Shown: one piece after another, positions 45,022-63,527 of the stretch
Layout: each line of letters begins with the position of its first letter
Numbering within the stretch: the first letter of the stretch is position 1
Program-made: the position numbers and the translations under genes
The notes under the pieces: generated by a model
The model's database searches: none
Told to the model about the DNA's origin: nothing
Seen by the model: only the letters and a program-made list of their open reading frames with translations
Assembly: GCA_012729015.1 (NCBI GenBank)
Contig: JAAYDY010000034.1
Coordinates: forward strand, 1 to 64,000
Source: Phycisphaerae bacterium
GTDB taxonomy: Bacteria; Planctomycetota; Phycisphaerae; FEN-1346; JAACEH01
Length of the DNA stretch: 64,000 nucleotides
Reading direction: 5' to 3'

Positions 45022-45152
45022 TCGAGCGGAGAAAGGCTCTCGATGTCGTCGCACCAGGTGCAGGGATAGTCGTTCACTCGTGTGCCACGGCGGGTCTTGC
45101 CCGCCGTGCGAGTCCGGAGTATGCCGCCACAGCATGGCGGGGAGACCCAACG

Positions 45153-59408: not shown

Positions 59409-60230
59409 TCACGGCACGAGCCACGAGTCCTTGCGCGATCCGATGCGGTCGGTCGGGCTGCCGTACTCCTCGGCGTCGCTCCACGGCTGGTCCCAGTCGG
59501 ACAGGTCGAACTCGCTCCGCACCCAGATGTTGTTGCCGCCGATGCCGCACTGCGGCGTGGTCTGCCACGCGACGTGGCCGTCCACGTACAGGCAGTTCTG
59601 CCCCTGGAACTCGTGGTTCGGGCTGTTGAGCTGGTGCCGCTGCTTGTTGCGGTCCTCGCTGCGCGACGACGGTTCCTCGAACACGTCGATGCGGAACGGG
59701 TTGACGTCGGCTGCCACGACGAGCATCGGGTCGGCGCTGTCGGTCGTGCCGCGGCCGAGCTGGTTCTGATAACTGTAGCTGACGTTCCGCACGTCGCGGA
59801 AACTCCAGCGGCGGTCGAAGGCGATGGTGTCGATGTCCTCGTCGTTGTCGGCGCTGGGGCACAGGAAGACGCCCGGCACGCTCATCGTCTTGCGGATCAG
59901 CAGCCACCAGCACGACAGGTTGCACGTGAACGGGCCCAGGTCCTCGGCGGCCACGTCCTGCCGCCGGTCGATGATCTCGGTGTTGTCCTCGGTCCAGGCC
60001 TCGGCCCACTGCTCGCCGCCGTCGCCGCGATACACCGTGGGCCAGCGTCCGCCGTGGCCGGCGGCATAGACGCGGATGGACTGGCCGATGCCGCGCAGAT
60101 TGGCCGCACACTGCGCCCGGCGCGCCTGCTCCAGCGCCGCCGCCAGGTTCGGCAGCAGAATGGCCATCAGGGCCCCGATGATCGCCACCACGACCAGCAG
60201 TTCAATGACCGTGAACCCGCCGCGCCTCAT
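59409..60230 (-). CDS. Prepilin-like secreted protein, type II secretion/DUF1559-like (paralogue 1)
   Basis: This protein of about 273 residues has a type IV prepilin leader and helix, RRGGFTVIELLVVVAIIGAL, with the Gly before Phe for prepilin peptidase and the Glu at +5. A large globular domain follows with Trp-rich LSCWWLLIRKTMSV and HEFQGQNCLYVDGHVAWQT, which resembles the H-X9-DG motif but with ten residues between His and Asp-Gly. The C-terminus GSRKDSWLVP is shared with the paralogue at 62506. Start 60230 begins the leader. Many planctomycete genomes carry families of such proteins. Confidence 0.88.
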   Translation of the reverse strand: MRRGGFTVIELLVVVAIIGALMAILLPNLAAALEQARRAQCAANLRGIGQSIRVYAAGHGGRWPTVYRGDGGEQWAEAWTEDNTEIIDRRQDVAAEDLGPFTCNLSCWWLLIRKTMSVPGVFLCPSADNDEDIDTIAFDRRWSFRDVRNVSYSYQNQLGRGTTDSADPMLVVAADVNPFRIDVFEEPSSRSEDRNKQRHQLNSPNHEFQGQNCLYVDGHVAWQTTPQCGIGGNNIWVRSEFDLSDWDQPWSDAEEYGSPTDRIGSRKDSWLVP

Positions 60231-60337
60231 GGCCGTCGCCTCCGCCTCCCGCGCCACGACACTCCCCGCCTGCTCATTGCGGCCATGCTAACACTCCACG
60301 TAACGGGTGTCCATCCATAAAGTTAGAGTTGCGGGGC

Positions 60338-60508
60338 GCCATGCCTGCCCCGTCAGGCATGCGGCTCGTCGGTTGACTTTCGCTGGTCTACGGGTGATAC
60401 TCTCTGCCGTGAGTGCCACCACCAGCGCGGCGGCGGATGCACCGTTGCCGATTGACCGGGAGCGTCTTCCCGCGTTGTGACAAAGACCATGCCTGACGGC
60501 ATGGCACC
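60338..60508 (+). mobile_element. Internally deleted RAYT derivative (non-autonomous)
   Basis: Bases 60338-60413 match the left end of the RAYT element at 61379-61453: family A palindrome, then GGTTGACT, a spacer and the start of the coding frame (GTG instead of ATG). Bases 60437-60488 match its right end: CCGTTGCCGATTGACCGGGA and on to TTGTGA, then CATGCCTGACGG. The roughly 500 bases between are gone. The joint keeps frame, leaving 23 codons with PLPIDRERLPAL. Scattered substitutions show the split is not recent. Confidence 0.85.
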
Positions 60509-60577
60509 TGTCTACGGGATTGATTGACGGTTTGCGCTTGGGCAGGGTGCGGGCACTCTCAAGACATGTGAGGCACT

Positions 60578-61417
60578 ATGGCGAGACTGCATGAGAAGAC
60601 AGCGCTGGTGACTGGCGCCGCACAAGGCATTGGCCTGGCTATCGCTCGTGCTTTCGTGGACGAAGGCGCTCTGGTCGTCCTGTCGGACATCCAGATCGAA
60701 AAGGGCCGTGCCGCCGCAGCGACTCTCGGGGAGCGAGCGAGTTTCGTTTCCCTGGATGTCCGTGTGGAGGCGGACTGGGAGCGGGCGATGGCGTCCGTCA
60801 TCGACCGGTACGCAAGACTGGACGTGTTGGTGAACAATGCCGGGATCACCGGCTTCGCCGATTGCCAAGGGCCGCATGATCCCGAGCACGCGACGGCTGA
60901 GGCCTGGCGTGCCGTGCATGCGACGAATCTCGACGGGGTGTTCTTCGGCTGCAAGCACGCGATACAGGCCATGCGGCCCCATCGCAAGGGGTCGATCATC
61001 AACCTTTCCTCGCGGTCGGGCGTTGTCGGCATCCCACGTGCGGCCGCCTACGCGTCGAGCAAAGCAGCCGTGCGACATCACACCAAATCGGTAGCGCTGT
61101 ACTGCGCAGAGGAGGGGCTGGCGATCCGCTGCAACTCCATCCAGCCCGCGGCGATTCTCACGCCGATGTGGGAGGCCGTTCTGGGCGATGGGCAAGAGCG
61201 AGAGGCAAACCTCCGCCGCTATGCGGCAAGCGCGCCCTTGAATCGATTCGGCACCGTGGAAGAGGTCGCGGCCTTGGCGGTCTACCTCGCGAGCGACGAA
61301 TCCGGCTTCACGACAGGAGCGGAGTTCACTATCGATGGCGGCATGCTTGCCGGCGTCAGCGAACCGCCCAAGCCGGGTGCCATGCCTGCTCCGTCAGGCA
61401 TGCGGTTCGGCGGTTGA
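60578..61417 (+). CDS. Short-chain dehydrogenase/reductase
   Basis: This 279-residue enzyme is a classical SDR: cofactor motif [18 protein letters not shown], the Ser of IINLSSRSG, the Tyr/Lys pair in [11 protein letters not shown] and a C-terminal [15 protein letters not shown]. The acidic residue at the end of strand 2 (LSDIQIEK) favours NAD(H). The substrate is unknown. Normal family members end soon after IDGGMLAGV; here the frame runs on through [14 protein letters not shown], coded by family A repeat sequence at the left edge of the RAYT element, so the insertion changed the C-terminus. Confidence 0.9.
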
Positions 61418-61442
61418 CTTACGTTAGTCCACAGGTAATATC
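61414..61442 (+). promoter_or_regulatory. Promoter of the RAYT gene, probably leaderless
   Basis: TTGACT, 17 bases, then AATATC ends six bases before the ATG at 61449, so transcription would start at or near the start codon. The deleted copy has TTGACT-N17-GATACT at 60373-60401. Confidence 0.6.
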
Positions 61443-61448
61443 TCCTGC

Positions 61449-62021
61449 ATGAGTGTGACCGACAACCATCATAAGGCCTGCCGCCGCTACGACGAGCCCG
61501 GTCACGCCCATTACCTGACCTTCTCGTGCTTTCGGCGTCAGCCGTTTTTCCGCGGCCGCCGCAGTCCCGGCTGGTTTCTTGATGCCGTGGCTCAGGCGCG
61601 ACAGGAACTCCGGTTCGACCTCTGGGCCTGGGTGATTATGCCCGAACACGTTCATCTGCTGCTGCGGCCGGCCCCCGAGTCGCAAATCAGCGGCATCCTC
61701 TGGCGGATCAAGCGCCGCGTCACCCACGAAGCCACCCGTTATCTGGCTGCCGCCGATCCGGAGTTTCTGGAGCGGCGCCTGCTCGATGGTCAGCCCAACG
61801 GCCGGTTCACGCACCGTTTCTGGCAGCGCGGCGGCGGATACGACCGGAACCTCTGGCGTGTCGGCGAGCTGCGCGAGAAGGTCGATTACATACACGCGAA
61901 TCCCGTGCGCCGCGGCCTCGTGGCCCACCCGCGCGACTGGCCGTGGTCAAGCTGGCGTGCGTGGAATGAGGAGGCAAACGATCCGTTGCCGATTGACCGG
62001 GAAAGTCTTCCCGTGTTGTGA
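61449..62021 (+). CDS. REP-associated tyrosine transposase (RAYT), Y1 family
   Basis: This 190-residue protein is related to IS200/IS605 Y1 transposases. It has the conserved start HYLTFSCFRRQPFF, the HUH motif in MPEHVHLLLRP, and the catalytic Tyr predicted in REKVDYIHANPVRRGLV, with WPWSSWRAW at the end. RAYTs are linked to REP palindromes and can cut and join them in known examples. Family A repeats flank it on both sides. A shortened copy lies 1 kb upstream. Chance of activity: the key residues look intact. Confidence 0.93.
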   Translation: MSVTDNHHKACRRYDEPGHAHYLTFSCFRRQPFFRGRRSPGWFLDAVAQARQELRFDLWAWVIMPEHVHLLLRPAPESQISGILWRIKRRVTHEATRYLAAADPEFLERRLLDGQPNGRFTHRFWQRGGGYDRNLWRVGELREKVDYIHANPVRRGLVAHPRDWPWSSWRAWNEEANDPLPIDRESLPVL

Positions 62022-62119
62022 CGAAGCCCATGCCTGACGGGGCGAGGCTGTCCGACAATTCGCCGAGGCACGTACTCATCTGTGGCAGAGGCGCGTGCAT
62101 GCGGCGAGTCAGAGTTGGG

Positions 62120-62352
62120 TGCCATGCCTGCCCCGTCAGGCATGGGCGATTCCCCTTGCCCTTCTGCGTGGCTGCCCTCGACGGGCTCGGGACCTGCGTC
62201 AATCAGCCATCCTGCGCCTGAGGGGCCGTAATGCCATGTTCCACAGCGTATGGCCCATGGCGAGTGGTCGGACAGCCTCGACGGGGCAGGCGTCGCACCC
62301 AACGCGAGTCAACCGACGAGCCGCATGCCTGACGGGGCAGGCATGGCACCCG
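62120..62352. repeat. Family A repeat cluster downstream of the RAYT gene
   Basis: Family A palindromes occur at 62120-62144 and 62333-62352. Bases 62309-62352, read on the minus strand, give GCATGCGGCTCGTCGGTTGACT after the palindrome, matching the left end of the element at 60338, so this is a solo element end. A variant (GACGGGGCAGGCGTC) sits at 62279. Confidence 0.75.
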
Positions 62353-62505: not shown

Positions 62506-63360
62506 CTACGGAACCAGCCAGGAATCCTTCTTCGAGCCGATGGGATCGCCGGTGTTGTCGTTGCTGCGGTCTTCTTCTGACCACGGCTCCTCATCCTCAG
62601 AGGCATCGTAGGTGCTTTGCAGCCAGATGTTGTTGCCGCCGATGCCGCAGTAGGGAGTGTTCTGCCACGTGACGTGGCCGTCGGCATACAGGCAGTTCTG
62701 CCCCTCGAAATCGTGGTTCGGGCTATTCAGCCTGTACCGCTCCTCCTTTTCCATGGCATCTCTGTCCTCGGCGCGAGTCGACGGCTCCTCCGCAACATCG
62801 CCGCGATACGGGTTCACGTCGGCAGCCACGATCATCTCGGCGTCGGCGTTGTCGGTGGTGCTCTTGTCAAGCTGGTTCTGGTAGCTGTAGCTGACGTTGC
62901 TCAGATCCTTGAAGCTCCACCACTTGTCGTAATCGACGATATCCTCGTCTACGGACTGGTCGGCACTGGGGCACACGAAGACGTTCGGGTTGCTCATGCC
63001 CTTGCGAATCAGCAGCCACCAGCAGGACAGGTTGCACTGGTACGGATAGTCATCGTCCTTCATCTCCTCCGGCGTCTTGCCTTCGTTGGCTATGGCATCG
63101 GCAATCTCCGTGTCTTCGGCGGTCCAGTCCTCGCCCCACGCCTCGCCATCCTCGCCCTTGTACACGCTCGGCCACTTGCCGCGGTTGCCGGCGGAGTAGA
63201 CCTTGATGGACTGGCCGATGCCTCGCAGGTTCGCGGCACACTGGGCGCGTCGGGCCTGTTCCAGCGCTGCCGCGAGGTTCGGCAGCAGGATGGCCATCAG
63301 CGCGCCGATGATCGTGACGACCACCAGCAGCTCAATGACGGTAAAGGCTTGCTTTCTCAT
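62506..63360 (-). CDS. Prepilin-like secreted protein, type II secretion/DUF1559-like (paralogue 2)
   Basis: This protein of about 284 residues has the prepilin leader MRKQAFTVIELLVVVTIIGA and the same body plan as the one at 59409-60230: LSCWWLLIRKGMSN, HDFEGQNCLYADGHVTWQN, GIGGNNIWLQST and a GSKKDSWLVP end. An acidic insert (DEDIVDYDKWW and TPEEMKDDDYPY) distinguishes it. The residue at the cleavage site is Ala before Phe rather than Gly, unusual for a prepilin peptidase site. A terminator lies downstream. Presumably both proteins use the same secretion machinery. Confidence 0.88.
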   Translation of the reverse strand: MRKQAFTVIELLVVVTIIGALMAILLPNLAAALEQARRAQCAANLRGIGQSIKVYSAGNRGKWPSVYKGEDGEAWGEDWTAEDTEIADAIANEGKTPEEMKDDDYPYQCNLSCWWLLIRKGMSNPNVFVCPSADQSVDEDIVDYDKWWSFKDLSNVSYSYQNQLDKSTTDNADAEMIVAADVNPYRGDVAEEPSTRAEDRDAMEKEERYRLNSPNHDFEGQNCLYADGHVTWQNTPYCGIGGNNIWLQSTYDASEDEEPWSEEDRSNDNTGDPIGSKKDSWLVP

Positions 63361-63527
63361 GACCACAACCTCCATTAAGACAGAAATGAGAGTAAGAGAA
63401 CCGTGCCGTGCGACATCCGCGCGGCACAATACCATTATCGTAGGCCGGACGCCGTGCCGTGTCCAGCGAAAACCCGCCCTTTTTGTCGCCTAACCAGTTG
63501 GGGACGTGAGTCTTAGGGCGGTGCGCC

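Follow-up and report, generated by a model that had tools for sequence, protein, structure and literature searches.

The locus analysed here raises the question of how a RAYT transposase gene, a much shorter copy of its two ends and a solitary third end came to lie within some 2 kb of each other, and whether together they document how a full transposon gives rise to a small dependent element. The locus lies near the end of a 64,000-nucleotide stretch of DNA from a Phycisphaerae bacterium, hereafter the window, which is part of contig C17 of an assembly of 4.45 Mb in 122 contigs. A preliminary description had proposed that the short copy was derived from the full RAYT by loss of its interior, and had linked the surrounding family A palindromes to this transposase. 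The explanation that we favour, at a probability of about 80%, is that the RAYT unit (R) is a REPtron, that the short copy (D) and the solo end (S) are remnants of other copies of such a unit, and that a MITE-like insert in the right hairpin of R is a separate matter. The features concerned are collected in Table 1.

Table 1. Features of the RAYT locus and its surroundings, in window coordinates.
Feature	Position	Strand	Remarks
R, RAYT unit	61375..62300	+	inverted family A palindromes at both ends, the right one interrupted by the MITE-like insert
R, left family A palindrome	61375..61402	+	hairpin CATGCCTG-CTCCGT-CAGGCATG, with GTGC directly at its foot
rayt gene in R	61449..62021	+	190 aa; EHVH, WQ and YIHANP motifs intact
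R, right family A palindrome, inner part	62029..62043	-	ends in the 8-bp duplication GACGGGGC (62036-62043)
R, right family A palindrome, outer part with foot	62280..62300	-	includes the second copy of the duplication (62280-62287)
MITE-like insert	62044..62279	+	236 bp; 19-bp terminal inverted repeats GAGSCTGTCCGACAATTCG; own family A palindrome at 62117-62144
D, apparently decayed RAYT unit	60334..60508	+	175 bp; in order: left end with palindrome, promoter-like TTGACT-17-GATACT, 16-nt block from inside R, final 58 bp of the RAYT, right palindrome in shortened form
D, left family A palindrome	60334..60361	+	foot GCGC, not GTGC
D, right palindrome	60488..60508	-	loop and stem shortened (CATGCCTGACGGCATGG), GTGC foot kept
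S, solo inverted left end	62299..62351	-	53 bp; palindrome plus 25 bp of RAYT leader
Short-chain dehydrogenase gene	60578..61417		
DUF1559 pilin-like gene	59409..60257		
DUF1559 pilin-like gene	62506..63435		
Solo RAYT end of the C67 type	45076..45111		

The product of the gene in R scores 103.2 bits against the NCBIfam model NF047646 (cut-off 80), and bears a distant likeness to the solved TnpA-REP structure 4er8. It carries the HUH motif, the W and the catalytic Y with NP by which RAYTs are recognised, including all six residues (H67, H69, W125, Y147, N151 and P152) that are invariant across 21 aligned RAYT proteins, and its gene is flanked by two inverted REPs of a dispersed family, the left one complete and the right one split by the insert. 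Judged by its sequence, the protein is a RAYT, a Y1 HUH transposase. Canonical REPs have GT[AG]G at their foot; the foot of family A, and that of the hairpin family of a second RAYT on contig C67 (see below), is instead GTGC. Since GT[AG]G is absent from RAYT classes 2.6 and 3 as well (PMC6006769), this foot bars the term canonical REP, but not the term RAYT. The window locus is of a known kind, the RAYT/REP unit, in a GTGC-guided variant. It resembles the RAYT/TnpA-REP REPtron (Nunvar 2010, PMC2817692; Quentin 2018, PMC6006769) in that a Y1 HUH gene lies between two inverted REPs, in that each RAYT has a REP family of its own, and in the tetranucleotide at the hairpin foot. It differs in that this tetranucleotide is GTGC (GTGG in some relatives) and not the GT[AG]G of the published rule, in that the HUH motif EHVH and the Y motif YIHANP fit no row of the published subclass table, and in that the relatives of the window RAYT include multi-copy mobile units.

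According to the preliminary description, all copies at this locus are bordered by family A palindromes, which holds with two qualifications: the right palindrome of D is shortened, and that of R, which appears to end after CATGCCTGACGGGGC, is complete only once the 236-bp insert and one copy of the flanking duplication are removed. The palindrome within the insert belongs to the insert and not to the RAYT. As expected of a MITE, the insert, which the preliminary description had overlooked, has terminal inverted repeats, exists in several copies, contains no gene, and is flanked by an 8-bp target duplication. Genome-wide, 68 MITE ends were found within two mismatches, and 31 of 42 distinct ends examined lie directly against half of a family A palindrome that is interrupted at its loop; among 57,223 random positions, 65 do so. 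A family A palindrome is present inside most, though not all, of the MITE copies. The insert is a REP-seeking MITE that targets the loops of family A, and is a matter separate from the RAYT. It shares site-specific insertion into REPs with REP-targeting insertion sequences such as ISPpu9 of Pseudomonas putida (PMC8450116), but differs from ISPpu9 in being a MITE with 19-bp terminal inverted repeats and 8-bp target duplications, in hitting the loop, and in mostly carrying a REP itself. A search of the genome for an autonomous partner of the MITE found none; an IS256-type transposase was considered as its source and rejected, as the sole intact copy (on contig C20) has different ends. Near-identical copies of the MITE end many contigs of the assembly (loci L137-L154).

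The left palindrome of R overlaps a neighbouring gene. The frame of the short-chain dehydrogenase crosses this palindrome, which encodes the last residues of the enzyme, and its stop codon lies in the promoter-like TTGACT of the RAYT; promoter-like hexamers are present in the left ends of both D and R. The dehydrogenase gene and the RAYT cluster are together enclosed by two paralogous DUF1559 pilin-like genes, which are 73-85% identical in blocks.

The proposed link between family A and the window RAYT is borne out by the distribution of both. Within two mismatches, the family has 141 copies in this genome (70 + 71) and none in 100 relatives, and the window gene is the only one of the genome's four RAYT genes that is directly bordered by it. 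The RAYTs on contigs C31 and C78 have the motifs DHLH and YIHWNP or YVHWNP and lie amid GTAG-tagged repeats, and the RAYT on contig C67 is flanked on either side by a hairpin family of its own, GTGCCACGGCGGGTCTTGCCCGCCGTG, with 22 dispersed copies. A RAYT of the window kind is found in 33 of the 100 relatives, mostly with other adjoining hairpins; these RAYTs have hairpins of their own in the same arrangement, and share the GTGC/GTGG foot. On this pattern of occurrence, family A is identified as the REP of the window RAYT. Most family A copies are single palindromes with inner flanks that do not come from R, which counts against the explanation favoured here, and the idea that they are deletion derivatives of R was rejected on account of these differing flanks. 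The window also holds a solo RAYT end of the C67 type, with 97% identity over 36 bp.

What, then, are D and S? That D shares both ends with R, as described previously, is confirmed by identities of 81% over 85 bp on the left (E 2e-19) and 91% over 58 bp on the right (E 2e-20). The third, inverted left end is likewise real, S being 92% identical to the left end of D and 90% identical to that of R, and all of these matches are far beyond chance. The loss of internal sequence from D is also genuine, but the single deletion that had been assumed is not: D keeps 16 nt of sequence from mid-R, CAGCGCGGCGGCGGAT (E 1e-4), and their retention implies two deletions, of roughly 370 and 140 bp. These shared sequences also bear on the notion that D, R and S came to resemble each other secondarily, through repeated insertion of the family A-carrying MITE. 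The MITE does contain a family A palindrome, and one of its copies sits inside the right hairpin of R; however, the three features share the RAYT leader, and D also shares coding sequence, none of which is present in the MITE, so that we consider this notion refuted and its probability negligible.

D could, on the other hand, be a functional non-autonomous element that was made from R and is mobilised by the R transposase. It has hairpins at both ends, two inverted REPs around a short spacer as in a REPIN (the right one shortened), and in layout and near size it matches the 166-167-bp elements of the C67 RAYT. However, D does not occur in several dispersed copies. Searching the 4.45-Mb genome returned neither D nor S a second time, the remaining matches being to the palindrome alone and at most about 37 bp long, although it should be noted that the assembly is fragmented, with many contigs ending inside the MITE, and that copies may be missing from these counts. 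The preliminary description had itself named a lack of further copies as evidence against its proposal, and this is what was found for D and for the solo end alike. In addition, D has suffered two deletions in place of one clean loss, its left foot is damaged, its right stem is shortened, and its ends have diverged from R by 9-19%. Thus, it is improbable that D is a working element, and the earlier claim does not hold for it in this sense; D is more aptly described, from its sequence features, as a relic that has the layout of a non-autonomous element and shows no sign of spread.

Because D and S are single-copy, an origin by tandem duplication or by recombination between palindromes has to be weighed against one by transposition. 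D and R form a direct repeat with a spacing of 1041 bp, which fits a duplication followed by decay, and the literature portrays RAYTs as genes that occur in one copy and do not move themselves (PMC3116915). All three features might therefore stem from tandem duplication and recombination between family A palindromes, without any transposition of the unit, the RAYT being an immobile domesticated gene. The relative G076 does contain a tandem RAYT array, but the same genome also has units at several unrelated sites with identical boundaries, which implies that units of this clade can move; moreover, S is inverted and is not a product of tandem duplication. We regard this account as a minority view deserving some weight, and as less probable than the one in which D and S are remnants of other copies of the unit.

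The units of G076 are particularly informative. Seven full RAYT units of 753 bp, with 90-100% identity, are present, several of them at unrelated sites, and all have identical terminal bases (GGGCGGGGTGGCACTG and its complement), with no target duplication visible around them. From this distribution of copies, the G076 RAYT unit is a mobile transposon. At one locus (L123, C1:2612660-2621410), three units lie in direct tandem at a spacing of exactly 1578 bp, with a fourth, inverted unit beside them. G076 also contains five internally deleted units from which the middle is missing (L323, L324, L325, L326 and L327). L323 and L324 extend to both outer ends and L327 nearly does so; L325 and L326 are complete to the outer end on the left, but on the right go no further than the inner palindrome.

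A comparable family has arisen around the C67 RAYT. Three elements, on contigs C93 (167 bp), C105 (167 bp) and C69 (166 bp), have both ends of this RAYT, to which they are 79-95% identical over 38-89 bp per end. The interiors of the three are 75-77% identical to each other, and such a common interior points to the spread of a single deleted copy from which all three descend. A fourth, related element on C59 has an interior with 62-70% identity; a fifth, likewise on C105, is weaker, and the MITE interrupts it. The C67 family therefore comprises several dispersed copies with both RAYT ends. Hence, the claim that a full RAYT unit can produce small dependent elements is supported in principle, by the C67 family and G076. 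Bertels and Rainey (PMC3116915) had proposed the passage from an autonomous unit to a dependent element as a possibility. The G076 and C67 elements show this step, in contrast to the view, in the same work, of RAYTs as single-copy and immobile. They can also be compared with REPINs, which are non-autonomous, consist of two inverted REPs, need a RAYT in trans, and for which derivation from REPs flanking an ancestral element has been offered as a possibility (Bertels and Rainey 2011, PMC3116915). The C67 and G076 elements differ from REPINs in that they retain subterminal or coding sequence of the RAYT beside the REPs, which makes their origin by internal deletion visible.

The explanation that we favour for the window can be put as follows. 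R would be a REPtron, in which two inverted family A hairpins, each with a tetranucleotide of the GTGC type at its outer foot, enclose the gene of a Y1 HUH transposase. By analogy with IS200/IS605 and TnpA-REP, the biochemistry of which (PMC8266576) is our source for single-strand binding, guide-directed cleavage and the lack of a target duplication, the protein would bind family A hairpins on single-stranded DNA, the GTGC foot would select the cleavage site, and the transposase would move its own unit as well as hairpin-ended fragments. D would be what is left of an older copy of the unit after two deletions had removed most of the gene, and S the left end remaining from another copy. Separately, a MITE that inserts into hairpin loops has split the right hairpin of R. 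In sister and related RAYTs, internally deleted copies were amplified into non-autonomous elements. The idea that REPs and REPINs originated from a transposon reduced to its hairpin ends has so far been a conjecture; in one genome and a relative, the intermediate stages are visible as full units, spread internally deleted units, relics and single hairpins.

The GTGC foot is not peculiar to the window. A de novo search with no preset tag detected an inverted repeat between the flanks of 117 of 129 RAYT loci, the other 12 having none. The motif GTG[CG]C is present at or near the hairpin foot in 92 of these 117 loci, a count that depends on the rules of the hairpin-finding script, rests in part on weak hairpins, includes the C31 gene through its GTAGGGTGG repeat although that gene is better seen as GTAG-type, and contains a few duplicates because the sets of relatives overlap in part (e.g., L066 and L173 denote a single place). 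Where the hairpin is clear, the stem is immediately preceded by GTGC or GTGG, in the position that GTAG takes in canonical REPs. The loci come from Planctomycetota, Acidobacteria, Armatimonadetes and Zixibacteria. The same tag stands on both sides in 81 loci (64 with GTGC and 17 with GTGG), and about nine changes of tag are placed on a 47-protein tree. The published search rule for REPs is GT[AG]G, with atypical feet in classes 2.6 and 3 (PMC6006769), and GTGC thus falls outside this rule. The GTGC/GTGG foot is a natural variant of the guide, and the behaviour expected of it follows definitely from the published cleavage-site model. In guide swaps with the TnpA-REP of Marinomonas, GTGG gave cutting at CC, and GTAC at GA or GT (PMC8266576); on this basis, cleavage at GC or GA is predicted for GTGC.

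Residue 30 of the protein (window 61536-61538), a column that was chosen after looking at the data, is R in 54 of 59 GTGC rows and in 5 of 16 GTGG rows, where it is often N, G, S or H. This is a lead for guide recognition, but too weak for a claim that the residue reads the fourth guide base: over five independent supported-branch pairs, the direction is consistent (3.2 versus 0.1 pairs), and the median p of 0.25 is not significant. Somewhat short of even odds, and hence tentatively, we put forward a RAYT clade spanning several phyla (Planctomycetota, Acidobacteria and others) that may use a GTGC/GTGG guide instead of GTAG, with the fourth base partly read by residue 30, and with self-mobile units that spawn amplified internal-deletion elements and so show the origin of REP-type repeats from a transposon.

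Acidobacterial relatives in this group recall the TIRYTs and TIRtrons (Di Nocera 2013, PMC3733652), RAYT-like genes that have long inverted repeats in place of GTAG REPs and include a sharply defined acidobacterial group. The motif described for TIRYTs is GGGGWSAS, whereas the ends found here are hairpins with a GTGC or GTGG foot. The acidobacterial TIRYTs may overlap with the GTGC/GTGG group.

As for the GTAG-tagged repeats of the present genome, six tandem 40-bp copies (GTAGGGTGGCTGCTTG) lie directly before the C31 RAYT (L061, 1222-1528), and the GTAGGGTGGCTGCTTG hairpin is also found inside the MITE, next to family A.
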